From assembly GCF_000411295.1 (NCBI RefSeq), contig NZ_KE150421.1:621324-685323 (forward strand): a stretch of 64,000 nucleotides of DNA, read 5' to 3'. The translations under genes and the position numbers were made by a program. The notes beneath the pieces were generated by a model that was not told where the DNA came from, did no database searches, and saw nothing but the letters and a program-made list of their open reading frames with translations. Below, in pieces: positions 13,885-37,615 of this stretch. Positions within the stretch are counted from its first letter, which is position 1. Every line of letters begins with the position of its first letter. The stretch comes from Paenisporosarcina sp. HGH0030 (GTDB lineage Bacteria > Bacillota > Bacilli > Bacillales_A > Planococcaceae).

Positions 13885-14289
13885 CGTTGCCATGAAGAAA
13901 AAAGACATCAACTGGTCCGAATGGTCGATTCATATCCCGAAAGGAAAACGGCCAGTATCGTCCTCTTCACGAAGGAATGTGAGGAACACTTGAAAGTCTA
14001 TCTTGAACCTCAGTGGGACGACTTGCCATATCTGTTTCTGAATACATCCAATAGCGAGCAGATTTGCAGGCGGACCATTCAAAAGCGGTTTACGCGTTAA
14101 ACCAATAAGCTTGGCATTAAGCTGACCCCACATACGCTCAGACATACGTTCGCAGCACACCTCGCCATCAAAGGGATGCCGCTCGTGTGTATCCAGACCC
14201 TGTTGGGCCATCACGATTTGAAACAGAAGCAATACTACGTAAGGCTCTACGACCATGCCCGGAAAGCCATCTATGACGAATGGATGTAA
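13885..14289 (+). pseudogene. tyrosine recombinase/integrase, C-terminal remnant
   Basis: Only the catalytic half survives, in two frames. The first part reads KKKDINWSEWSIHIPKGK and shifts frame near 13950 into VLFTKECEEHLKVYLEPQW. A TAA at 14098-14100 replaces what should be an aromatic residue (R-stop-TNKLGIKLTPHTLRHTFA). The remaining motifs are intact: HTLRHTF, LLGHHD and the catalytic Tyr in QYYVRLYDHARK. The N-terminal domain and the first catalytic arginine are missing. It lies between housekeeping genes and the first repeat-flanked small gene, so it marks an old integration. Confidence 0.88.
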
Positions 14290-14701: not shown

Positions 14702-14756
14702 TCTTAAACTAACGGATGCTTTAGTCAAGTAGAGCAACGTCTTTTAAGACGTTGCT
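14702..14756 (+). repeat. cassette-type repeat A plus hairpin (junction 1)
   Basis: The A core AAACTAACGGATGCTTTAGT is followed by an 11-bp hairpin AGCAACGTCTT / AAGACGTTGCT in the terminator position. No B element follows; instead a fragment of a subtilase gene begins. Confidence 0.7.
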
Positions 14757-14762
14757 ACATTT

Positions 14763-14957
14763 ACATATAAAAGTACTTCTGATAAACAACCGGTTATAGC
14801 AGGTTCAAACAGTGCAGTGGTTACAGGATTGTTCAAAAATACTTCCTACTATTTAAGAGTAAAAGTAGTAGGCGGCTTGAACGATGGTATATCTAACGTT
14901 GTTACGGTAATAACAGCAGATGATCCATTACTACCTGCTAAAAAGAACAACAATTAA
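14763..14957 (+). pseudogene. remnant of a subtilase C-terminal fibronectin-III domain
   Basis: This open stretch without a start encodes SNSAVVTGLFKNTSYYLRVK and VVGGLNDGISNVVTV, ending in a stop. It matches the fibronectin-III module of the large protease downstream (SNTAVVTGLNENTTYKFRVT, TGGLNAGFSNVATA). It is therefore the tail of a lost paralogous surface protein, cut off at its left by the repeat element. Confidence 0.8.
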
Positions 14958-15187: not shown

Positions 15188-15488
15188 TAATTGGTTTATA
15201 TTTCTGAATATTTAATGAATAAATGTTGAAAACTCCCAGTTGATACTAGATTAGTTGAAAAATTTTAATAACCTGATGTTGAAAGACAGATCAGTGTATT
15301 AAATGTGAAGTTAAGTCATTGGCACGAAACCTTTACATTTTTACAAATATATTAATTTACTTTTAGTTAGATAGGGGAGAGGAATGAGGAAAAGGAGAAA
15401 CAAAAAAATTATTATTAAAATCATTGTTTCGTTCGTAATTCATTGCACTAAATGTGTAATAAAGAGACAGGGACTTGGAGGAAAGAAA

Positions 15489-18400
15489 ATGGGGAAAAAA
15501 GCAAACAATAAAAGTAAGGTCTTAAAAAGCTTGGCTGTATTTGCTCTATCATCTAGAAACCGTAAGTTCAAGAACATTTTAGTAACAACGACGATGAGTG
15601 CTTTATTACTGTCATCTGTCATTCCGTACAACGTGCTAGCGGCATCATCAACACCAATCGATCCTTTTCATCAGGATTCGAGCGCTCCACAGTTGACGAA
15701 AGAACAGATTGCGGCATTGAATAAGTACAGCATAGGTGGTCCAGAAATTTCGTCTAAGATCAACACATCAAGCGTGGAACCTGTTCGCGTCATTGTTGAA
15801 TTCAAGCAAGCACCGGCAAAAGTAGCTGTCATGCAGGCACAAGTAGCTGGAAACAAGACAACATTAGAAGAAGAAACACAAGACGTAAGCGATTCGCACA
15901 AACAGTTTCGTGCATTTGTGGATGGATTGTCTCAGCACAAAGCTGGCCTAAGTGTTAATGCAGTTACTGCGCAAACTGTAGCTAGTGAAGAAGATGCTGG
16001 AGATTCATCTGCCATCCAAATTACAATAGAATACAAGAACGCGTTAAATGGGGTTGCCATGACGCTTCCAGGAAACATGGTCGAGAGACTATTCGAATCT
16101 GGTCTTGTTAGCCATGTATTCGCAGATGAAATAGTCAAACTTGACCCGATAGAAGTGGAACAAGTGAAACAGCAAAGCGTTGAAGGGTTAAAAGAAAATT
16201 CGATCCCACTTCCGGGAATTGATGCGCTTCATAACGAAGGCATTAAAGGAAACGGCATTAAAGTCGGTGTGTTAGATACAGGAATCGATTACAATCATCC
16301 AGATTTAACGGATGTGTATAAAGGATACCGAAAACAAGAAGGCGTTGATCCAACTAAGATTAACCCGAGTTCGGTTAAAGGATGGGATTTCGTCGATAAC
16401 GATGCAGATCCGATGGAAACAACATATGATGACTGGGTGAATGCAGGTAAGCCAGTCATACAAGGTCGTGAATACCCGACGTCCCACGGTACGCACGTAT
16501 CTGGAACAATCGCAGCACAATCGAAAGCCAATGTCGAATATCCGGCACAAGGGGTTGCCCCTGGCGTTGACTTATTTGTCTACCGCGTACTAGGTCCTTA
16601 TGGTTCTGGTGCTTCAAGCGGGATTGTTGCAGCCATTGACAAGTCCGTTAGTGACGGCATGAAAGTCATTAACCTGTCACTTGGTGCAGCGAGTAACAAT
16701 CCACTATCAGCAGAAGCAATCGCGGTTAACAATGCGACACTCGTTGGTGTTACATGCGTTATTGCAGCAGGAAACTCAGGTAATTATGCATATACACTTG
16801 GCACACCTGGAGCAGCAGCGCTTCCCATCACGGTTGGTGCAAGTGACTTCTCGATGTCGATTCCGACCGCAACTGCAACAGTTGGAAACGAAACGTTCAC
16901 CAACTTTAAATTGCTTGGAAAAGGGTTCAATGACCACGTGGAAACACTTGCGAATAAAACGTATCCAGTTGTGTTTGTTGGCTTAGGTGGCGAGGATGAT
17001 TTCAAAGATGTTGATTTGCAGGGGAAAATAGCATTGATAGAGCGCGGAACGTATGCGCTTAATGAAAAAATTGTGAATGCACAAAAAGCAGGCGCAGTGG
17101 CGGCAATCATGTATAACAATGTCGACGGCGACATCGATAACTATTTAGCAAGTGGTGTTGGTTATATCCCAACATTCCGCATGTCAAAAGCAGACGGCGA
17201 GCGTTTAAAAGCAGCTGCTGAAACGGATTCAATTACGTTTACTGAAATCGGGTCAATAGTAACAGAAGGTAACCATTTGGCCGCTTTCAGTTCAAGAGGA
17301 CCCGTTACGTCCACCTATGACATTAAACCGGACGTTGTGGCTCCTGGGGTATCGGTTTACTCGACGTATCCAGAATTTATCCACAGTCCAGAAGCAGGAA
17401 TTGATTACTCACAAGCATATGCTCGTATTTCGGGTACATCAATGGCTTCTCCGCACGTAGCAGGGATTGCTGCACTGATTTTACAAGCACACCCAGATTA
17501 CAAACCGGCTGATGTCAAAGCAGCGTTGATGAATAGTGCGGACAAACTAAATGGCGACTATTCCGTGTACGAAGTAGGCGCAGGTGAAGTAGATGTAGCA
17601 GAAGCTGTTCATAACGAGATGGCATTCAAGGTACAAGACACCACGATAATAGGTGATGGAAATGGTGGCTTTATAGAGAACGCGTATGAAAAAGGCGCAT
17701 TGACGTTTGGTACGGTTTACAAAAAAGACGATAGCACAAATACAACAAACCGTACGATTGTCTTTGAAAACCGCGGTACCCAAGGGAAAACATTCGACGT
17801 TTCGGCAGAATATAGTAAACCGATTGATACTGTAAGTGCACATGTAAGTGACGCAGTAGCGAACAATGTAACCGTAACGACTTCTTCAGCATCTGTGACG
17901 GTCGCTGCAGGGGAGGCAACAAATGTAACGGCAACGGTTAACATACCTGCGAGCGCAGAGATGGGACAATATGAAGGGTATGTGAACATTGTCAACCATG
18001 ACAATCCAAATGAACACTATCGAATTCCGTTCGCGACTCGCTTCGTTGAAAAAGGAATCGGAGACGTTGAGATCTTGTTGCCAGCAATCTCAACTCTGCA
18101 TTGGAGGCATCCATATACGGCGCCTCAAACTCGCTATATCTATTTCAGATTAAACAGCCCGATGAAAGATTTATGGCCGATTATCTATGATAAAGACGGC
18201 AAAGCACTTGGAGCAAGTTCGGTAAAACCATTTAGTTTAAACGGTGCGCCTCTTGATACGGACCTAAGAGCAGTATTCTCGCCATCGTATTATCCGTTTA
18301 TCGGCGATCCGAAAGATGAAAAAACAGACATCAAGCAGCCAATGGCGAAACTGCCAGAAGGTGAATATACAATCAAAGTTCGTACAACAGATGCAGATGC

Positions 18401-20756
18401 TGTGAGATACGAGGTCGTTAGTCAAAAGTTTATCATCGATAACACGTTACCGAAGTTGACGTTAAAAGACCATAAACCTGGCGTCTATGAGCTAAGTGAT
18501 TCGGACTTTACAAATGAAAAAGGGCCAGATGGAAATATGGCTAATGCGCATTGGGTTCATGCCAACCTGTGGGATGAAGGAACGGCAAAATTAGCATCTT
18601 CAGGCTACACACAGTCTGAAAACAAGCTATATTATTACTTTAATCAAAAAGCTGTAGCGAACGGCGATTTCCCACTTGATGCAAATGGGGATACAAAATT
18701 CGGTATTGAACCATCTGATATTGAGAATGGCCCAGCAACAATCAAACTATTCCCTATTGATATGGCGAAAAATGGGGAAATTTTAAATGAATCCAATTTC
18801 TATGCATTCGTCAAAAAAGGTACACCTTATGTGATACCAACTTACGATAAGGAAAAAGTCTATCAAGATGAAACGTTGACGATGACATTAAATCTACATA
18901 ACGTAAAGGATTTGATGGCTGGAAACTACAATGTTGAATTCTATGATTGGCTCTTCCAGTTCCAAAGCGTAAAAGTTAACCCAGCATTCCAGCAGTATGC
19001 GGATGCAAACGGATTCACAGTAAGTGTCGATGAACCCACTGTGAAGGAACACCCTTTATATCCAGGTATTAAAGACGAGGTGAATGCGGGCGCACATATC
19101 AGCGGTGGTGAAGATTTTAAAGGAATCAGTGGTGATACGCCATTCCTTGATGTGACATTTAAACTGATAAATGACCGTATGTACGACGTCTACTATGACA
19201 CGATGAACGTCGAAGCTAATACAGTGCCATTCACGTATACACAATACGGTGAGCAAGAACCGGTTGTCATCCAATCATTCAACCATATTAACCAATATAA
19301 AATCATACCAAAGAGCAATTATGTGGTATCCTTTACCCATCTTGAAGCGTTCTATTCAAACTTTACGATGGATTATTCCATCATAGGAGCAAAAGCATAC
19401 GCGCAATTGAAAGACGGGATAAAAGTGCAAGGAACGATTGACAAAAAAGGCTTTGTAGATATCGAGAATCTTCCTTTAACGAAAGATCCAATCGATATTG
19501 TCGTTGAAGCCCCTGGACATCTGAAGAGCATTCAGAAAGTGACGGTTGGTAAGAAAACACCGTGGGGCGAAGACGTCGGTGAGTATATACAAAAACAAGG
19601 TGCTCAACCAGTTGCAGCAGCCGGTGATGTAAATGGAGACGGTGTCATTGACGTGTTAGACGTGAAACAAGTTGCGAAGAAATTCGGCGTTCAAAAACCG
19701 ACTGATTTCAACATCGAAGACTTGAACCACGATGGTATTGTCAATGCAACGGATATGAACTTTCTGGTTGGGAATCTATACAAATCAAACCCAGATGCAA
19801 CCATCACACCAAAAGAGATGGTTGACGGAAAAGTGAGCACAGAATTCTTCAACTTGTTAGGTATTAAATCTCTTGTGAACACATTGAAAGCAACAACAAA
19901 AACGAATCATACAGCAACACTGAATTGGCTAGCAGCTGTTGATGCAACAAATGTAAAAATTGAAAAATCAACTGACGGCTTATCATGGACGGCAGCTACA
20001 ACAGCAAGTCCTGTAGCAGTTGATTCAAACACAGCAGTTGTCACTGGGTTAAACGAAAACACGACTTACAAATTCCGCGTAACGGTAACAGGCGGATTAA
20101 ACGCTGGTTTTTCAAATGTGGCAACTGCAACAACTGATGTCACGTTACCTCCAAACCCAACACCAACTCCAGAGCCAACGCCTGAGCCAATCACATTTGC
20201 TGATATCTCAGAACATTGGGCAAAAGAGGATATTGAATTATTAGCAACAAAAGGCATTATTAATGGACTGAAAAATGGATTATTTGAACCCGAAAAAGAT
20301 ATTACACGTGCAGAATTCACAGCCCTACTTGCGCGTGCTCTCGACTTGCCAAAAGCAAAGGAGCAAGAAAACTTTACAGATGTCCGACCAACGGATTGGT
20401 ATGTTTCGGAACTACAATCAGCTGTTGAAGCTGGATTAATCAATGGTTACGAAGACAATACATTTAAACCAAGTATGTACATCACACGTGAACAAATGGC
20501 TGCATTAATGGGTCGTGCATACAAAATCATAGAGAAACAAGCACCAACAGTGGATGTGGATCAAGTATTGGCAAAATATATCGATCGTAAATCTATCAGT
20601 GCATGGTCCAGAGCAGACGTAGCATTAGCTATACAACTTGGCGTAATTCAAGGAAACAAGGCAAATGAATTGCAACCAAAAGAATCTGCAACAAGGGCAG
20701 AAACAGCAGTCATGCTAAAAAGATTACTGGTAGAAATTAAACTGCTGGAAGAATAG
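15489..20756 (+). CDS. SLH-anchored multidomain subtilisin-like serine protease (Vpr-like)
   Basis: The start is taken at ATG 15489, with GGAGG correctly spaced; an upstream ATG at 15384 lacks support. The product has about 1755 residues. In order: signal peptide ending near VLAAS, I9 propeptide (about 95-220), S8 catalytic domain with Asp in VLDTGIDYNH (near 262), His in SHGTHVSG (near 331) and Ser in GTSMASPHVAG (near 651), a PA domain inserted at about 490-585, beta-sandwich modules, a cohesin-like module (about 1117-1270), a dockerin-like double calcium loop (GDVNGDGVIDVLDV and DLNHDGIVNATDM, about 1378-1434), fibronectin III, and three SLH domains that bind the cell wall. It should act outside the cell as an anchored protease. 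The combination with dockerin- and cohesin-like modules is unusual. Confidence 0.92.
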   Translation: MGKKANNKSKVLKSLAVFALSSRNRKFKNILVTTTMSALLLSSVIPYNVLAASSTPIDPFHQDSSAPQLTKEQIAALNKYSIGGPEISSKINTSSVEPVRVIVEFKQAPAKVAVMQAQVAGNKTTLEEETQDVSDSHKQFRAFVDGLSQHKAGLSVNAVTAQTVASEEDAGDSSAIQITIEYKNALNGVAMTLPGNMVERLFESGLVSHVFADEIVKLDPIEVEQVKQQSVEGLKENSIPLPGIDALHNEGIKGNGIKVGVLDTGIDYNHPDLTDVYKGYRKQEGVDPTKINPSSVKGWDFVDNDADPMETTYDDWVNAGKPVIQGREYPTSHGTHVSGTIAAQSKANVEYPAQGVAPGVDLFVYRVLGPYGSGASSGIVAAIDKSVSDGMKVINLSLGAASNNPLSAEAIAVNNATLVGVTCVIAAGNSGNYAYTLGTPGAAALPITVGASDFSMSIPTATATVGNETFTNFKLLGKGFNDHVETLANKTYPVVFVGLGGEDDFKDVDLQGKIALIERGTYALNEKIVNAQKAGAVAAIMYNNVDGDIDNYLASGVGYIPTFRMSKADGERLKAAAETDSITFTEIGSIVTEGNHLAAFSSRGPVTSTYDIKPDVVAPGVSVYSTYPEFIHSPEAGIDYSQAYARISGTSMASPHVAGIAALILQAHPDYKPADVKAALMNSADKLNGDYSVYEVGAGEVDVAEAVHNEMAFKVQDTTIIGDGNGGFIENAYEKGALTFGTVYKKDDSTNTTNRTIVFENRGTQGKTFDVSAEYSKPIDTVSAHVSDAVANNVTVTTSSASVTVAAGEATNVTATVNIPASAEMGQYEGYVNIVNHDNPNEHYRIPFATRFVEKGIGDVEILLPAISTLHWRHPYTAPQTRYIYFRLNSPMKDLWPIIYDKDGKALGASSVKPFSLNGAPLDTDLRAVFSPSYYPFIGDPKDEKTDIKQPMAKLPEGEYTIKVRTTDADAVRYEVVSQKFIIDNTLPKLTLKDHKPGVYELSDSDFTNEKGPDGNMANAHWVHANLWDEGTAKLASSGYTQSENKLYYYFNQKAVANGDFPLDANGDTKFGIEPSDIENGPATIKLFPIDMAKNGEILNESNFYAFVKKGTPYVIPTYDKEKVYQDETLTMTLNLHNVKDLMAGNYNVEFYDWLFQFQSVKVNPAFQQYADANGFTVSVDEPTVKEHPLYPGIKDEVNAGAHISGGEDFKGISGDTPFLDVTFKLINDRMYDVYYDTMNVEANTVPFTYTQYGEQEPVVIQSFNHINQYKIIPKSNYVVSFTHLEAFYSNFTMDYSIIGAKAYAQLKDGIKVQGTIDKKGFVDIENLPLTKDPIDIVVEAPGHLKSIQKVTVGKKTPWGEDVGEYIQKQGAQPVAAAGDVNGDGVIDVLDVKQVAKKFGVQKPTDFNIEDLNHDGIVNATDMNFLVGNLYKSNPDATITPKEMVDGKVSTEFFNLLGIKSLVNTLKATTKTNHTATLNWLAAVDATNVKIEKSTDGLSWTAATTASPVAVDSNTAVVTGLNENTTYKFRVTVTGGLNAGFSNVATATTDVTLPPNPTPTPEPTPEPITFADISEHWAKEDIELLATKGIINGLKNGLFEPEKDITRAEFTALLARALDLPKAKEQENFTDVRPTDWYVSELQSAVEAGLINGYEDNTFKPSMYITREQMAALMGRAYKIIEKQAPTVDVDQVLAKYIDRKSISAWSRADVALAIQLGVIQGNKANELQPKESATRAETAVMLKRLLVEIKLLEE

Positions 20757-20842: not shown

Positions 20843-21060
20843 GCCTCCTTCCGGCATTAAAGAGGAAAACTAAACCGGCACTGACAGAAGAATTGAATAT
20901 ATCGAATTTCATCGTATTTATGATGGGAAAATCAGCCAAGCTGAATGGCTATTTTACATACGTTGTGAAAAAGGTTTGTCTTAGTTTTCATATTTCTTAG
21001 AAACTGTAAGCATTAAAACTAAGTATATAATGACACCAATGTATGTAGTCTTGAAATAAA

Positions 21061-21132
21061 GTTGCGATGTTTATAAAAAAGATGCGATGTTTTGAATAAT
21101 GTCGCGACGTTTGCAAAAAAGTTGCGTTGATC
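21061..21132 (+). repeat. degenerate 20-nt tandem repeat
   Basis: Three full 20-nt units and a partial fourth start with GTTGCGATGTTT, GATGCGATGTTT, GTCGCGACGTTT and GTTGCGTTGATC, each full unit ending in an A-rich tail. The array runs into the terminator hairpin of the next repeat element. Confidence 0.8.
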
Positions 21133-21195
21133 CGAGCAGGATTAACGCTTTTTTGTTGAACTTATTGAACTAACGGAGCAGGTTAGTAAAACAAT
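21124..21195 (+). repeat. terminator plus cassette-type repeat B (junction 2)
   Basis: The GCGTTGATCC / GGATTAACGC hairpin with six T is followed by CTTATTGAACTAACGGAG and CAGGTTAGT. The inverted arms are ACTAAC and GTTAGT. It precedes the first small gene of the 21-kb array. Confidence 0.82.
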
Positions 21196-21244
21196 ATAAA
21201 AGTTAATTCGTAAATGTATTAATAATTTTAAGGAGGTAATAAAT

Positions 21245-21496
21245 ATGAAAATAGAAATTGAAGTTAAAGCATTTGGAGAAGTTGAAGTTCAAGGTATAGA
21301 AGACTCTTTTAAAGATGTTGAACTAATGGGTGTACATAAACTTTCTAAAGATACAACACTAGGTGAAGTAGAAGCTCTATTATCTAGGTTATTTGGAGAA
21401 GATGAAAATGGTTATAAAAATCCAGAACAATGTGTCGGTAATAAAATCACGATTCGTGCAAAAAAGGAAAATGGTGAAATTGTATATTTAGGTTAG
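21245..21496 (+). CDS. small hypothetical protein, cassette gene 1 of the 21-kb array
   Basis: The 83-residue acidic protein starts MKIEIEVKAFGEVEVQG behind AAGGAGGTAATAA. It contains no cysteine cluster, membrane helix or known motif, apart from a C-terminal beta-strand pair (NKITIRAKKENGEIVYLG). It lies between a B repeat (50 bp upstream) and an A repeat (7 bp downstream) and shares no operon partner. Confidence 0.7.
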   Translation: MKIEIEVKAFGEVEVQGIEDSFKDVELMGVHKLSKDTTLGEVEALLSRLFGEDENGYKNPEQCVGNKITIRAKKENGEIVYLG

Positions 21497-21502
21497 AAGT
21501 TT

Positions 21503-21575
21503 TGTTGATATAACGGGTACTTTACTTCAAGAAGCCTTTTCTTATTGAACTAACAAGGCAGGTTAGTTCAATAAA
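21503..21575 (+). repeat. composite cassette repeat A-B (junction 3)
   Basis: A diverged A core (GTTGATATAACGGGTACTTT) is followed by GAAGCCTTTT and then a B element (TTGAACTAACAAGGCAGG, TTAGTTCAATAA). The B arms pair as TTATTGAACTAAC / GTTAGTTCAATAA. Confidence 0.8.
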
Positions 21576-21602
21576 ATCATCAAATTCTAGGAGGGGATAA
21601 AG

Positions 21603-21792
21603 TTGAATAGGGATGTAACATTAGCAGCTTATTTAAGCTGGTTATTAATTGATTGAAATTGGTTGGTTATACGGAAAAGTTAATAGCCCATATACAACAG
21701 GTGAAATTGTTTACGTTGTGGTAGTAATTGCAGTAACAGTGTCAGTGGGTGCAGTTGGGATAAAGTCATTCGGCAATTTGAAAGGTAATTAA
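21603..21792 (+). pseudogene. frameshifted small membrane protein, cassette gene 2
   Basis: A TTG start behind AGGAGGGG opens MNRDVTLAAYLSWLLID, which stops at TGA near 21652. One base out of frame, it continues EIGWLYGKVNSPYTTGE followed by a membrane helix VVVVIAVTVSVGAVG. A single-base indel in the run before GAAATTGG has broken a protein of about 62 residues. I do not recognise the family. Confidence 0.7.
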
Positions 21793-21807
21793 AATTTATT
21801 TGTTGAA

Positions 21808-21842
21808 CTTATTGAACTAACGGGGCAGGTTAGTTGAACAAG
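21808..21842 (+). repeat. cassette-type repeat B (junction 4)
   Basis: The sequence has the consensus B core AACTAACGGGGCAGGTTAGTT, with outer arms CTTATTG and GAACAAG. No A element precedes it. Confidence 0.85.
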
Positions 21843-21893
21843 GGAAATGATAAAATGAATACTTAAGTGTGCAAAGGAAGAGAGGATGATGAT

Positions 21894-22346
21894 ATGAATT
21901 ACAAAGATTTAATGAAATCAAAAGGTTATATTTATCTGAACAATTTGTCAGAACCTGAAGAAAATGCCCTATGTATATTAATCGATAGATGTAAAATCAG
22001 TAACAAAAGTGAGGATATAGATTTAGGTGAACGATTAACAGAAGCTTATTATCCTTTTGAAGTGGATGATGGATTGCCAGCAATTCAACTTGAATTTAAG
22101 TCCTATGTATCTTATTCGGTAATAGATGAGTCATTTACAGTGGTGGATGAATATGAAGTTTTTCAAGGTGAAATATTTAAGGTTTACACCAAATCAAGAT
22201 ACTTAGATTTCATTAAAGCTGGAACCATAGCAGAAGATATATTTCCCGAAGACAACTTTGTACATTATCAGGTTCCTTGCTTGAATCATATAATCGATAT
22301 TATTTCGTATGAAGAACCTAAAATAACTGAAAAAAAGAGAGGGTAA
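21894..22346 (+). CDS. hypothetical protein, cassette gene 3
   Basis: The start is set at ATG 21894 behind AGAGAGG; an upstream GTG at 21867 has no ribosome site. The 150-residue protein is acidic and soluble, with a two-layer look (helical first 45 residues, then strands such as AIQLEFKSYVSYSVIDE). No family was recognised. It is flanked by B upstream and A-B downstream, like the other lone genes here. Confidence 0.7.
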   Translation: MNYKDLMKSKGYIYLNNLSEPEENALCILIDRCKISNKSEDIDLGERLTEAYYPFEVDDGLPAIQLEFKSYVSYSVIDESFTVVDEYEVFQGEIFKVYTKSRYLDFIKAGTIAEDIFPEDNFVHYQVPCLNHIIDIISYEEPKITEKKRG

Positions 22347-22347
22347 T

Positions 22348-22436
22348 CTTCAACTAACGGGTGCTTTAGTTGAAGAACATCGGGCGCTTATTCAGCTCTT
22401 TCTTATTCAACTAACGTAGCAAGTTAGTTGAATAAG
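22348..22436 (+). repeat. composite cassette repeat A-B (junction 5)
   Basis: A is CTTCAACTAACGGGTG plus CTTTAGTTGAAG, then AACATCGGG, a weak hairpin and TTTCTTATT, then B with 14-bp perfect arms CTTATTCAACTAAC / GTTAGTTGAATAAG around GTAGCAA. It closes the array; the next gene is on the other strand. Confidence 0.9.
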
Positions 22437-34265: not shown

Positions 34266-34611
34266 TTGCCCTCCTCATGGCAGAAGTGGCTCAAAATTGG
34301 GGTATTATATTCATTTGTTTTTTTAGGATATTCTATTTACCTTTGGAGAAAAAGAAAAGAGGGTAAGGGATATTATTGGGATGATGAAGGGGTTGTATTT
34401 GACCTGCAAGGGAATAAAGTTTTTTGGGATGAGATTGAAAGTATTAAATTCTCCAATGTAAAAGGTATGAAGTCTACTGCGATTTATCCTCACTATACAA
34501 ATCAAAAAAAAGATTAGAATCCGTCGTAAGAAATCGATGACAACAACTGCACACTCAATTGATTGGTTTTTGATTGAAAAGCCAAGGGAATTTCACAAGA
34601 AATGGTTTTAA
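34266..34611 (+). pseudogene. small membrane protein with PH-like tail, frameshifted
   Basis: There is no good start; the frame opens at TTG 34266 just after a stop. It encodes one membrane helix (IGVLYSFVFLGYSIYLW) and then a strand-rich region (GYYWDDEGVVFDLQGNKVFW, DEIESIKFSNVKGMKSTAIY) like bacterial PH domains. The frame breaks in a run of eight A (34504-34511). With one A fewer it continues KKIRIRRKKSMTTTAHSIDW and FLIEKPREFHKKW. The end abuts an antisense integrase fragment. Truncated at the 5' end and frameshifted, it is probably dead. Confidence 0.65.
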
Positions 34612-34794
34612 ATGCTTCCCTGAAATCGCTAGGTATTCTTTCAATTGAATTGTGTCCAGAGTTGTTATTTCAATATCCTTAAAATATTCAATAAGTAATG
34701 ACAATTGGAGCCGATAAGCCTTTAATGTCTGTGGAGAAAAGCCTTCAATCCTTTTATCAGATTCAAATGCTTCCCATGCTTTTGACAGTAGCAA
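34603..34794 (-). pseudogene. tyrosine recombinase N-terminal (core-binding) fragment
   Basis: On the minus strand, LSKAWEAFESDKRIEGFSPQ followed by TLKAYRLQLSLLIEYFKDIE and LDTIQLKEYLAISGKHLKP is the SAM-like N-terminal domain of a phage/XerD-type integrase. The reading stops matching just after HLKP, where it runs into the antisense of the preceding gene. The catalytic domain is absent. It belongs to a different subfamily from the remnant at 13.9 kb. Confidence 0.75.
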
Positions 34795-34867: not shown

Positions 34868-34892
34868 TTTACTAACGGACAGGTTAGTTGAA
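34868..34892 (+). repeat. cassette-type repeat B (junction 6)
   Basis: TTTACTAACGGACAGGTTAG plus TTGAAG carries the B core with arms ACTAAC / GTTAGT. It lies between the integrase fragment and the first small gene of the 35-kb array. Confidence 0.8.
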
Positions 34893-35181: not shown

Positions 35182-35262
35182 ACTGATGCGTTAGTTAGAG
35201 ATCATCGGGTGATTAAGAAGCCTTTTTTTATTGAACAAACGGGGCAGTTTAGTTAAAAAAGG
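35177..35262 (+). repeat. composite cassette repeat A-B (junction 7)
   Basis: A diverged A (AACTGATGCGTTAGTT), then GATCATCGGGTGATTAAG, AAGCCTTTTTTTATT and a B element TTGAACAAACGGGGCAG, TTTAGTTAAAAAA. Confidence 0.85.
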
Positions 35263-35328: not shown

Positions 35329-35679
35329 TTGAAGAAAACAATTGGTTGGACACTTGCTTTAACTACACTTTTAATCGGAGGAGCAATCTATTATTTCATA
35401 ACAGTTTCTCTCTACGAACCATCGGAAGATTTATTTGACTTCCCTATTCCTAAAAAGGCTGAACTAGTTAAAGAAAATGAACACGCGGTAATTTATGATT
35501 GGTCCAGCGCATCCGAAGAAAATGGGATACCATTTGGGTATAAATTAGTTATCAAAGCGAATGGATGGGAAAGAGTTGAGAGTTCGGATATAGATGCTTC
35601 TCCCCATTACTCAAAAGGGAATCATCAAATAAATGTGCTTTCTCTAAGAAAGCAATTGACCCTCATCATAGAGAAATAA
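35329..35679 (+). CDS. small anchored hypothetical protein, cassette gene 5
   Basis: The 116-residue protein has an N-terminal helix (TIGWTLALTTLLIGGAIYYF) that anchors or exports it, then a soluble domain (FPIPKKAELVKENEHAVIYD, then GIPFGYKLVIKANGWERVES). This shape recurs in small Bacillus cassette-like genes, but I cannot name the family. The start is TTG behind GGAAGGGTAAG. Confidence 0.65.
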   Translation: MKKTIGWTLALTTLLIGGAIYYFITVSLYEPSEDLFDFPIPKKAELVKENEHAVIYDWSSASEENGIPFGYKLVIKANGWERVESSDIDASPHYSKGNHQINVLSLRKQLTLIIEK

Positions 35680-35702: not shown

Positions 35703-35755
35703 TTATTCAATTAACGGGTGCTTTACTTCGAGTAGGAGTGAAGCTTTTTTCTTAT
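35703..35755 (+). repeat. cassette repeat A plus terminator (junction 8)
   Basis: TTATTCAATTAACGGGTGC, TTTACTTCGAGTAGG and GAGTGAAGC with six T. The A element and terminator overlap here. The partner B is displaced about 130 bp to the right. Confidence 0.75.
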
Positions 35756-35926: not shown

Positions 35927-36673
35927 ATGAAAAATAATTTATACGAATATGTTCAACAACAATTTGTTTCTATTCCTAGCGGTACAGAATTAATACGTGA
36001 TTACCGAGTTACCAACAAATGGTTAAGTGCTAATCATCAGTTAGCAATGCCTGGCTCAAGAAAAGGGCATACTGAAAAAATAATGGTTGTAGAAGTGCAT
36101 GGATTTTATTTGGATAAACTACCTGTAACTGAATCGTTATATAATACCATCTTAAATAATGAGTTTGAAATTACTTTAAACGATCGTAAACCAGTGACTA
36201 ATGTTTCTTGGCTAGATGCCATAAAATTTTGTAATTCTTTTTCGATACAATTAGGCTTAAAACCTGCTTATGAAATTTTAGATGATACAACGAATATTTC
36301 ATGTGATTGGTCAGCAAATGGATTTCGGTTACCTACTGATGCGGAATGGCAATATGCATGTAAAGCTAATATAAATAAATATTCATATGGTAGGCTTGAA
36401 GATATAGCTTGGTATAAAGGAAACTCGGATAACAAAATTCACCCAGTAGGTTTAAAACAACCTAATTTATTTGGGTTATACGATATGATAGGGAATGTTT
36501 GGGAATGGTGTTGGGATTTATATGATATCGAGACTTATGGAGAATATCGAATTTTTAGAGGAGGTAGTTGGGCAGAGGAGGAAAGAGGGTGCGGTAGTAC
36601 GTCTAGAAGACGAGGACATCCAACATTCACTATTGATGATTTAGGTTTTCGATTAGCAAGGTCTATTCTATAA
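35927..36673 (+). CDS. formylglycine-generating-enzyme-like (SUMF1/FGE-sulfatase) protein, cassette gene 6
   Basis: The 248-residue soluble protein has the complete FGE fold markers: FVSIPSGTE, GFYLDKLPVTESLYN, PVTNVSWLDAIKFCN, FRLPTDAEWQYACK, NLFGLYDMIGNVWEWCWD and FRGGSWAEEE ending DLGFRLARS. True FGEs convert a sulfatase Cys to formylglycine, but many bacterial members modify other targets or only bind, and no sulfatase gene is present in this window. AAAGGAG precedes the ATG. It is the largest member of the repeat-flanked genes. Confidence 0.88.
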   Translation: MKNNLYEYVQQQFVSIPSGTELIRDYRVTNKWLSANHQLAMPGSRKGHTEKIMVVEVHGFYLDKLPVTESLYNTILNNEFEITLNDRKPVTNVSWLDAIKFCNSFSIQLGLKPAYEILDDTTNISCDWSANGFRLPTDAEWQYACKANINKYSYGRLEDIAWYKGNSDNKIHPVGLKQPNLFGLYDMIGNVWEWCWDLYDIETYGEYRIFRGGSWAEEERGCGSTSRRRGHPTFTIDDLGFRLARSIL

Positions 36674-36820: not shown

Positions 36821-36882
36821 CATCAGGCTGATGAAACAGCCCTTTTTTCTTATTGAACTAACGGGGGAGGTTAGTTGAATAA
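36821..36882 (+). repeat. composite cassette repeat: GATCATC motif, terminator, B (junction 10)
   Basis: GATCATCAGGCTGATGAA, ACAGCC and TTTTTTCTTATT, then B with GAACTAACGGGGGAGGTTAG. The A core is missing. Between the FGE gene and this point (36674-36820) is only a 5-codon frame with a good ribosome site (ATG near 36797), perhaps the stub of a deleted gene. Confidence 0.8.
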
Positions 36883-36986: not shown

Positions 36987-37376
36987 ATGCGTCGAAGTAT
37001 TTCAGTATTATTGTTGCTGGTATTGGTATCATTTTTGCTTTCAGCTTGTGGCTATAAAACATTCGCTTTTTCTGGAGAGTCGGATAATTGGATGGCAGAA
37101 TTAAAGGTTACTCAAACCGAAGACGAATATGAAGAACAGGAATTAAAAATTCAATATAAAGGCAATGACGTAGACTCTGTTGGAGAAATTAAATATATCG
37201 TAGAGACTAATGCAGGAGGTTTTAGCGGTAGCGGTTTATCATTGGAGAAAAATGGAACTCTAAAAGCTAGTGCTGAAGGTAATCCAACCAATGCCAAAAT
37301 CGTTGAAGAATCTGAGGTTATAGTAACAATAGAATGGAATAGCCATACTGAAACAATCATATTAACAATCAATTAA
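36987..37376 (+). CDS. small lipoprotein, cassette gene 7
   Basis: The 129-residue protein has a lipoprotein signal peptide with lipobox LLSAC (Cys21) and an all-beta soluble domain (WMAELKVTQTEDEYEEQELK...VIVTIEWNSHTETIILTIN). It should sit on the outer face of the membrane. AAAGGGGATG precedes the ATG. No family was recognised beyond a general Ig-like look. An A repeat follows the stop within 10 bp. Confidence 0.72.
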   Translation: MRRSISVLLLLVLVSFLLSACGYKTFAFSGESDNWMAELKVTQTEDEYEEQELKIQYKGNDVDSVGEIKYIVETNAGGFSGSGLSLEKNGTLKASAEGNPTNAKIVEESEVIVTIEWNSHTETIILTIN

Positions 37377-37379
37377 ATA

Positions 37380-37463
37380 ATGAACTAACGTTGCTTAGTT
37401 GGTGACATAGGAGCTGCTAGTCAGCTCTTTTTCTTATTGAACTAATGGGCAGTTTAGTTAAGG
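37380..37463 (+). repeat. composite cassette repeat A-B (junction 11)
   Basis: A is shortened (TGAACTAACGTTGCTTAGTT), the terminator is GAGCTG-CTAGT-CAGCTC with five T, and B is TTGAACTAATGGGCAG, TTTAGTTAAG. Confidence 0.85.
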
Positions 37464-37521: not shown

Positions 37522-37615
37522 TTCTTCAACTAACGAAGGCTTTAGTTAAAGATCATCGGGTTGTTTAAACAACCCTTTTTCTTATTGAACTAACAGGGCA
37601 GGTTAGTTCGATAAG
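37522..37615 (+). repeat. composite cassette repeat A-B (junction 12), best preserved
   Basis: A is CTTCAACTAACGAAGGC, TTTAGTTAAAG; the motif GATCATCGGG leads into a perfect terminator GGGTTGTTT / AAACAACCC with five T; B is CTTATTGAACTAACAGGG, CAGGTTAGTTCGATAAG. Confidence 0.9.

Follow-up and report, generated by a model that had tools for sequence, protein, structure and literature searches.

A probable gene-cassette system with two core-site types and an Xer-like recombinase in Paenisporosarcina and other relatives of Bacillus

Here we report that two short repeat elements, A and B, found in arrays throughout the genome of Paenisporosarcina sp. HGH0030 very probably serve as core sites for a gene-cassette system that has its own 279 aa Xer-like recombinase. 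Judging from the sequences compared, the system appears to be carried by many relatives of Bacillus, and its sites also seem to frame old resistance genes on small Staphylococcus plasmids. The analysis centres on a stretch of 64,000 nucleotides (contig NZ_KE150421.1, positions 621,324 to 685,323), hereafter the window, to which all coordinates refer unless a contig, genome or locus is named.

Both elements are 20-21 bp long and consist of inverted arms (AACTAAC/GTTAGTT) that flank a 7 bp spacer, B reading AACTAAC-GGGGCAG-GTTAGTT (spacer type GGGGCAG) and A reading AACTAAC-GGGTGC-TTTAGTT (spacer type GGGTGCT), with weaker additional arms present in each. A strict B pattern matches 48 times in the 3.52 Mb genome to which the window belongs, and its reversal matches 0 times. 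With a B weight matrix, 243 sites score at least 12 bits in the stretches fetched from this genome (109 sites) and from G101 (134 sites), a complete one-contig genome of the same species with dnaA at base 331. The highest score in shuffled sequence was -8.8 bits over 754,866 positions, and the elements are far beyond chance. The array near 21 kb in the window illustrates their arrangement:

21168-21188, forward strand: B site opening the array (weight matrix); left limit of strain-to-strain exchange (21187)
21245-21496, forward strand: cassette 1, intact ORF of 83 aa; no Pfam match
21507-21532, forward strand: A site (weight matrix), followed by a short A-to-B module
21548-21568, forward strand: B site (weight matrix)
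21607-21791, forward strand: cassette 2, small membrane-type ORF, apparently frameshifted (by eye against L002:3803-3994)
21815-21835, forward strand: B site (weight matrix)
21867-22346, forward strand: cassette 3, intact ORF of 159 aa; no Pfam match
22351-22376, forward strand: A site (weight matrix), followed by a terminator module
22409-22429, forward strand: B site at the end of the array; exchange limit on the right (22399 on)

An initial annotation had read this array as three small genes at 21.2-22.3 kb bounded by B, A-B, B and A-B copies of one element. The order of the sites is as described, all on the forward strand, and two of the genes are intact; the middle one does not stand as an intact ORF, as cassette 2 (about 21607-21791) holds none of at least 60 aa. 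Left of the opening B site, positions 21055-21121 carry short direct repeats of the ttgcgatgtttataaaaaag type followed by a terminator-like stem, a combination that recurs left of other B sites, e.g. near position 1652 of L006.

Within each fetched stretch all sites share one orientation, the exceptions being a single site each in L001 and L116. The strict B matches on contig C1 lie on the forward strand up to 659 kb (all 28) and on the reverse strand from 986 kb on (all 17), and in G101 72 of 73 sites are co-directional with replication, the sign of the GC skew fitting the orientation in both stretches tested (L117, +0.155; L126, -0.149). The G101 sites form 18 clusters, 17 of them co-oriented with replication, and 74% of the sites have a neighbour within 2.5 kb, compared with 9% for random positions; the origin-distal half of the chromosome holds 68 of the 73. 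The initial annotation had proposed that the element attracts or moves genes into an accessory zone rather than being a chance intergenic repeat, had named clustering and strand bias as the tests of this idea, and had named a uniform distribution with no link to small orphan genes as the outcome against it. Clustering and strand bias are both found and that outcome is absent; genes next to the sites are small and mostly singletons, and exchanged DNA ends at the sites, which supports the idea that genes are moved. The arrays are not confined to the one zone and occur genome-wide.

Orientation bears on a rival form of the same system, which we consider possible though unlikely, in which the enzyme acts on folded single strands in the manner of an integron integrase on attC, one strand is exchanged, and replication orientation matters. 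The 72 co-oriented sites favour it; however, if 75% of genes are co-directional with replication, 17 of 18 clusters corresponds to P = 0.04, so that orientation alone is modest evidence. The single orientation relative to replication, together with the palindromic form of the elements, is also what single-strand transposition by a hairpin-recognising enzyme of the IS200/IS605 or RAYT type would have in its favour. This reading is strongly disfavoured and scarcely credible: no match to the Y1 HUH transposase family (Y1_Tnp, PF01797) was found in G000 or G101 (0/2 genomes), although 5 of 14 control genomes match it, and the join between exchanged sequences falls inside the palindrome. Two other roles for the elements were rejected. 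A promoter inside the site is contradicted by 175 distinct right flanks, among which no fixed -10 position after B was found, and a known structured RNA was not recovered, as a search of four array loci (43,004 bases) against Rfam came back empty and RNAalifold returned no consensus structure for 58 aligned A-B composites (of 60 listed), the latter perhaps because stems shift in the alignment.

Intervals between successive B sites (n = 204) have a median length of 662 bp. In the 167 intervals shorter than 1.5 kb, the longest ORF is in the sense direction in 142 and antisense in 14, and 11 hold none; the antisense arrangement is the orientation of cat in the plasmid pC194. The cargo is diverse, with 177 ORFs from intervals of up to 2.5 kb falling into 129 families, 90 of them singletons, and a Pfam search of 128 cassette ORFs (E <= 1e-3) returning 91 different families, none in more than two members. 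Defence islands were rejected as an account of the content, since PADLOC recognised 7 families among the 128 ORFs, each in a single member. A chloramphenicol acetyltransferase-like gene forms a cassette in the window's environmental genome (L008:3055-3645), and an APH-type phosphotransferase is also found among the cassette ORFs.

Short A-to-B pieces (n = 117) fall into two main length classes (49-50 and 58-61) and are intrinsic terminators: a hairpin followed by T4 occurs in 95 of the 117, compared with 4 of 117 random pieces, and a terminator scan of L005 gives 15 sites against 4.4 in shuffles. For 134 of the 243 B sites, the 100 bp upstream contain no A.

Comparison of the window genome with G101 reveals that sequence shared between the strains tends to end at the sites. 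Of 70 distinct alignment ends, 43 lie within 25 bp of a site centre, compared with a mean of 4.9 and a maximum of 14 for random positions (2000 draws); the compared stretches were chosen for holding sites, and the random positions were drawn in those same stretches. For 23 of the 70 ends, the nearest site is more than 40 bp away. The array at 21 kb is swapped as a block, with a common flank up to 21187 and again from 22399, three modules in the window being replaced by about 5 kb of different ones in G101, and the cassette at 21808-22377 has two copies in G101 (97% and 92% identical), both located in the opposite half of the chromosome. Within sites, identical module ends meet different neighbours inside the core. 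Among B sites, 42 pairs share the right side and 10 the left, many of them stemming from one family of related modules; among A sites, 20 pairs share the right side and 12 the left. At L117:5592 and L126:8267, one degenerate right side is joined to two left sides, the switch occurring directly after GGGGCAG.

These patterns have to be weighed against a second rival, namely that the elements are passive repeats (terminators or palindromes spread in some other way), that strain differences arise by RecA-type homologous recombination, and that the recombinase is a bystander. The A-to-B modules are indeed real terminators, repeats share 20-90 bp, and part of the difference between strains could come from homologous recombination between them. 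Nevertheless, exchange limits fall within the 21 bp core, and B sites without a nearby A share only about 35 bp, which also argues against this reading; together with the recombinase loci considered below, we judge it improbable.

The two half-sites of B behave as separate units. In 217 distinct B sites, variable letters are linked to one another inside each arm, left as well as right (P < 0.001 in both cases), whereas the two arms are not linked to each other (P = 0.24), and no clear covariation between left and right arms was found in these or in 172 A sites; the best of 17 arm/spacer pairs at B (one spacer pair) reaches P = 0.015, uncorrected. Unlinked half-sites are what free exchange inside the site predicts, and they speak against a stem selected for its fold. 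Spacer letters 8-9 are ambiguous, going with the left by pairwise tracking and with the right by linkage (P = 0.005), so that the two analyses disagree. For exchange on folded single strands, it can be said that single DNA strands of B and A-B fold well (z of -10 to -13) and that sites with a common module end differ in their spacers, a finding that sits uneasily with a reaction depending on spacer identity. However, both strands fold equally well, half-sites reassort freely, and neither clear arm covariation nor a consensus fold in the A-B composites emerged, all of which speaks against exchange on folded single strands.

The window genome has 8 matches to PF00589. Two of these matches, at C1:499489-499968 and C1:587982-588461, are identical and belong to intact genes for the 279 aa recombinase, each located inside an array, between A and B, and antiparallel to the cassettes. 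A genome scan yielded 78 related recombinase loci, the closest being that of Paenisporosarcina sp. OV554 (96% identity); with eight Halobacillus-type loci set aside, the loci span about 20 genus names. Of the sites in all 78, 236 run antiparallel to the recombinase gene and 4 run parallel to it, the strand of these near-palindromic matches being set by the spacer letters. B lies on the 5' side of the recombinase gene in 51 of 70 loci, its core about 75 bp from the start codon, A lies on the 3' side in 40 of 67, and both are present in 28; the 70-locus count leaves out the eight Halobacillus-type loci, and the matrices were built from the window's species. In those eight loci, B is found in 0 and A in 2. 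An association of A/B sites with this more distant group (41-68% identity) was accordingly rejected, the overlap being 9 of 33 genomes (p = 0.14). A branch at 63-66% identity (Halobacillus, Gracilibacillus, Peribacillus and others; L081, L083, L085-L088, L091 and L096) is without the A/B architecture.

Among 261 genomes of the order, 41 carry the recombinase, 77 the strict B pattern, and 38 both (Fisher p = 1e-20), the recombinase being scored as present at 70% identity or more and E <= 1e-60, with the identity cut set after the list had been seen. Thus B is present in 38 of 41 genomes with the recombinase and in 39 of 220 without it; three recombinase genomes lack the strict element, and 30 of the 77 element-bearing genomes have no recombinase match at E <= 1e-60. 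This co-occurrence, and the A and B sites that flank the gene in relatives, count against the recombinase being a bystander to passive repeats. On the other side, arrays differ in G101 even though it has only fragments of the recombinase: G101 and G162, both element-rich, hold such fragments and relatives only about 30% identical, which in G101 may be XerC/XerD. Matching recombinase pseudogenes in both strains lie beside a B-like site at L009:2162-2562 and L124:1631-2031.

The window itself contains what look like the two ends of a recombinase module, together with a second array:

14706-14731, forward strand: A site, left end of the broken recombinase module (weight matrix); then a terminator stem as before the intact recombinases
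14733-14786, forward strand: terminator stem and last few recombinase codons (on the reverse strand), then unrelated sequence (by eye against L002:6880-6970)
34603-34794, reverse strand: remnant of the recombinase N-terminus (codons 1-64; 100% identity with the intact copies)
34868-34889, forward strand: B-like (attI-like) site upstream of the recombinase start, where the 35-38 kb array begins (placed with respect to the gene as it is in L002, L005 and relatives)
35234-35254, forward strand: B site (weight matrix)
35329-35679, forward strand: cassette ORF, 116 aa; no Pfam match
35708-35733, forward strand: A site; in G101 its place is taken by a B site, with about 1 kb of different sequence
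35927-36673, forward strand: cassette ORF, 248 aa, FGE-sulfatase domain (Pfam)
36856-36876, forward strand: B site (weight matrix)
36987-37376, forward strand: cassette ORF, 129 aa; no Pfam match
37439-37461, forward strand: B-like site, A by weight matrix
37527-37552, forward strand: A site with terminator module (weight matrix)
37588-37608, forward strand: B site (weight matrix); G101 is about 1.74 kb longer here

The A copy at 14.7 kb and the set at 35-38 kb are thus present, as the initial annotation had noted. It had counted two or three separate arrays within 25 kb. Because the start of the recombinase lies at 34.6-34.8 kb and its end at 14.7 kb, the A site at 14.7 kb and the B-like site at 34.87 kb look like the ends of a single recombinase module that has lost its middle and now stretches over 20 kb, with an ORF of 1790 aa (15384-20756) inside it. 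The 35-38 kb set would be the array of this broken module. A fragment of a different tyrosine recombinase (31% identity, one stop) lies at 13960-14286 on the forward strand, and a fragment resembling it is found in G101 (1757799-1758122).

In profile searches, the recombinase scores 224.2 bits against NF040815 (XerA; cut-off 220), with XerD and XerC next and below their cut-offs, and 95.9 bits against the integron-integrase model TIGR02249, for which the cut-off is 265. Sequence and fold searches of the PDB place Xer structures at the top (archaeal Xer, 4a8e; E. coli XerD, 1a0p; XerA, 5hxy) and IntI4 lower, although the fold ranks are soft given an AlphaFold model with a mean pLDDT of 78.6, a pTM of 0.53, and a poorly modelled stretch of 26 residues at the C-terminus. 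R138, K162, H228, R231, H254 and Y263, which we take from the family to be the catalytic residues, are invariant in 39 recombinase proteins. A true integron (IntI integrase and attC) in a Gram-positive host would account for an antiparallel tyrosine recombinase, an attI-like site and a cassette array, and the terminal motif is one letter off GTTRRRY. Nonetheless, with the integrase score so far below its cut-off, the XerA score above its own, Xer proteins outranking IntI4 in both searches, and arms that do not covary, we regard it as highly improbable.

Each module begins with a right half-site and ends with a left half-site. Modules started by B contain a single small gene together with the region upstream of it, and those started by A are short intrinsic terminators or contain the recombinase gene in reverse. 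In the mechanism that we favour, the recombinase would break and rejoin a pair of sites within or at the spacer, on double-stranded DNA; modules would leave and enter, probably as circles, and would pile up beside the recombinase and at other sites. The sequences show the sites and their distribution, the antiparallel recombinase, its co-occurrence with the sites, the exchange limits, the reassortment of half-sites and the terminators; the involvement of the 279 aa enzyme, the circles, and the double-stranded route are what we infer.

Sites of both types also occur on small resistance plasmids. In pC194, cat lies antisense between B (934) and A (1805), and the Cat of the cassette in L008 is 52% identical to that of pC194. 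The dfrK gene of pKKS627 is bracketed by two B sites (2844 and 3410), with further A and B sites after it. The backbones of pUB110 and pKKS627 are 99.7-100% identical; this identity breaks exactly after ...CAACAAACGGGCCA and resumes at CGGGCGCGATTGCTG, and between these points lie aadD-ble in pUB110 and tet(L)-dfrK with two more ORFs in pKKS627. Both CAACAAACGGGCCA and CGGGCGCGATTGCTG are cores of a looser, second flavour of site (L019, pKKS627; L133, pUB110), whose arms are AACAAAC/GTTTGTT and whose spacers are GGGCCAG and GGGCGCG; examined on plasmids and in fetched loci, it has 8 and 22 matches scattered in the 78 recombinase loci of relatives. The B element query retrieved 100 plasmid records, 19 of them from Staphylococcus, and the second-flavour query 234, of which 163 were from Staphylococcus. 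The recombinase query matched only larger plasmids of Bacillus relatives (49% identity or more) and none of these small plasmids, so that packaging of the staphylococcal resistance genes by the A/B system is something we infer from the sites. Phage carriage is unsupported, with one weak match among 50,697 phage records. In a Gram-negative record, plasmid pNY3A of Klebsiella grimontii (L134), a B and an A match surround a hypothetical gene at 213921-214581, either through transfer or through an assembly or sample mix-up.

No description of the A/B cassette system was found in searches of the CC-licensed PMC literature, and one may be in print elsewhere; a text search matched a 17-base string in PMC3609815 and PMC6029982. 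In the passages retrieved from a review of small staphylococcal plasmids (PMC6157413), pKKS627 is described, such sites are not mentioned and pUB110 is not named. In an integron survey (PMC9024848), Firmicutes made up 22% of the genomes but yielded one complete integron and a small number of orphan arrays. This picture of integron-poor Firmicutes would change if Bacillus relatives commonly had a cassette system of their own, which would also offer a test of where small Gram-positive plasmids had their resistance genes packaged and provide a compact recombinase with defined sites; because the terminator is exchanged separately, the question of how a gene becomes a cassette would also become testable. 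At its broadest, the system may be a gene-capture machine of the Bacillota's own, unrelated by descent to integrons, in which a module-borne Xer-family recombinase works with two site types whose spacers keep gene modules apart from terminator modules that can be interchanged. Genes, terminators and recombinase would then all be cassettes of one kit, and this kit would have packaged cat (pC194), aadD-ble (pUB110) and tet(L)-dfrK (pKKS627) in soil bacilli before these reached pathogens. We consider the case for this wider view evenly balanced.

Among known systems, the solved Xer recombinases (archaeal Xer, XerD and XerA) act at a single chromosomal dif site, whereas the recombinase gene described here is present in up to several copies per genome, beside cassette sites. 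The pdif (XerC/XerD) modules of Acinetobacter and others are similar in being bounded by core sites of the Xer type, in which a short spacer separates inverted arms, and in carrying resistance cargo. In contrast to them, the present system has a dedicated recombinase in a module of its own, large chromosomal arrays, and sites in direct orientation rather than in the alternating inverted one of pdif, and by eye the A and B cores are unlike dif. Modules of the pdif kind are recombined in trans by host XerC and XerD; here the dedicated recombinase co-occurs with the sites, but G101 has just its fragments and the about 30% identical relatives that may be XerC/XerD. Integrons are another close parallel. 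As in integrons, a tyrosine recombinase runs antiparallel to the array, one site stands beside its gene in the manner of intI and attI with the array on the other strand, exchangeable single-gene cassettes of mostly unknown function are arranged in tandem, orphan arrays occur, and exchange takes place at the site. Unlike integrons, the recombinase is Xer-like and falls below the cut-off of the IntI model, the sites have simple inverted arms that are conserved in sequence and gave neither clear arm covariation nor a consensus fold, in contrast to the R''-L''/L'-R' hairpin of attC, whose structure is conserved over its sequence, there are two site types with terminators as separate A-to-B modules, and many arrays are dispersed over each genome. 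The system is an integron-like cassette system and not a true integron.
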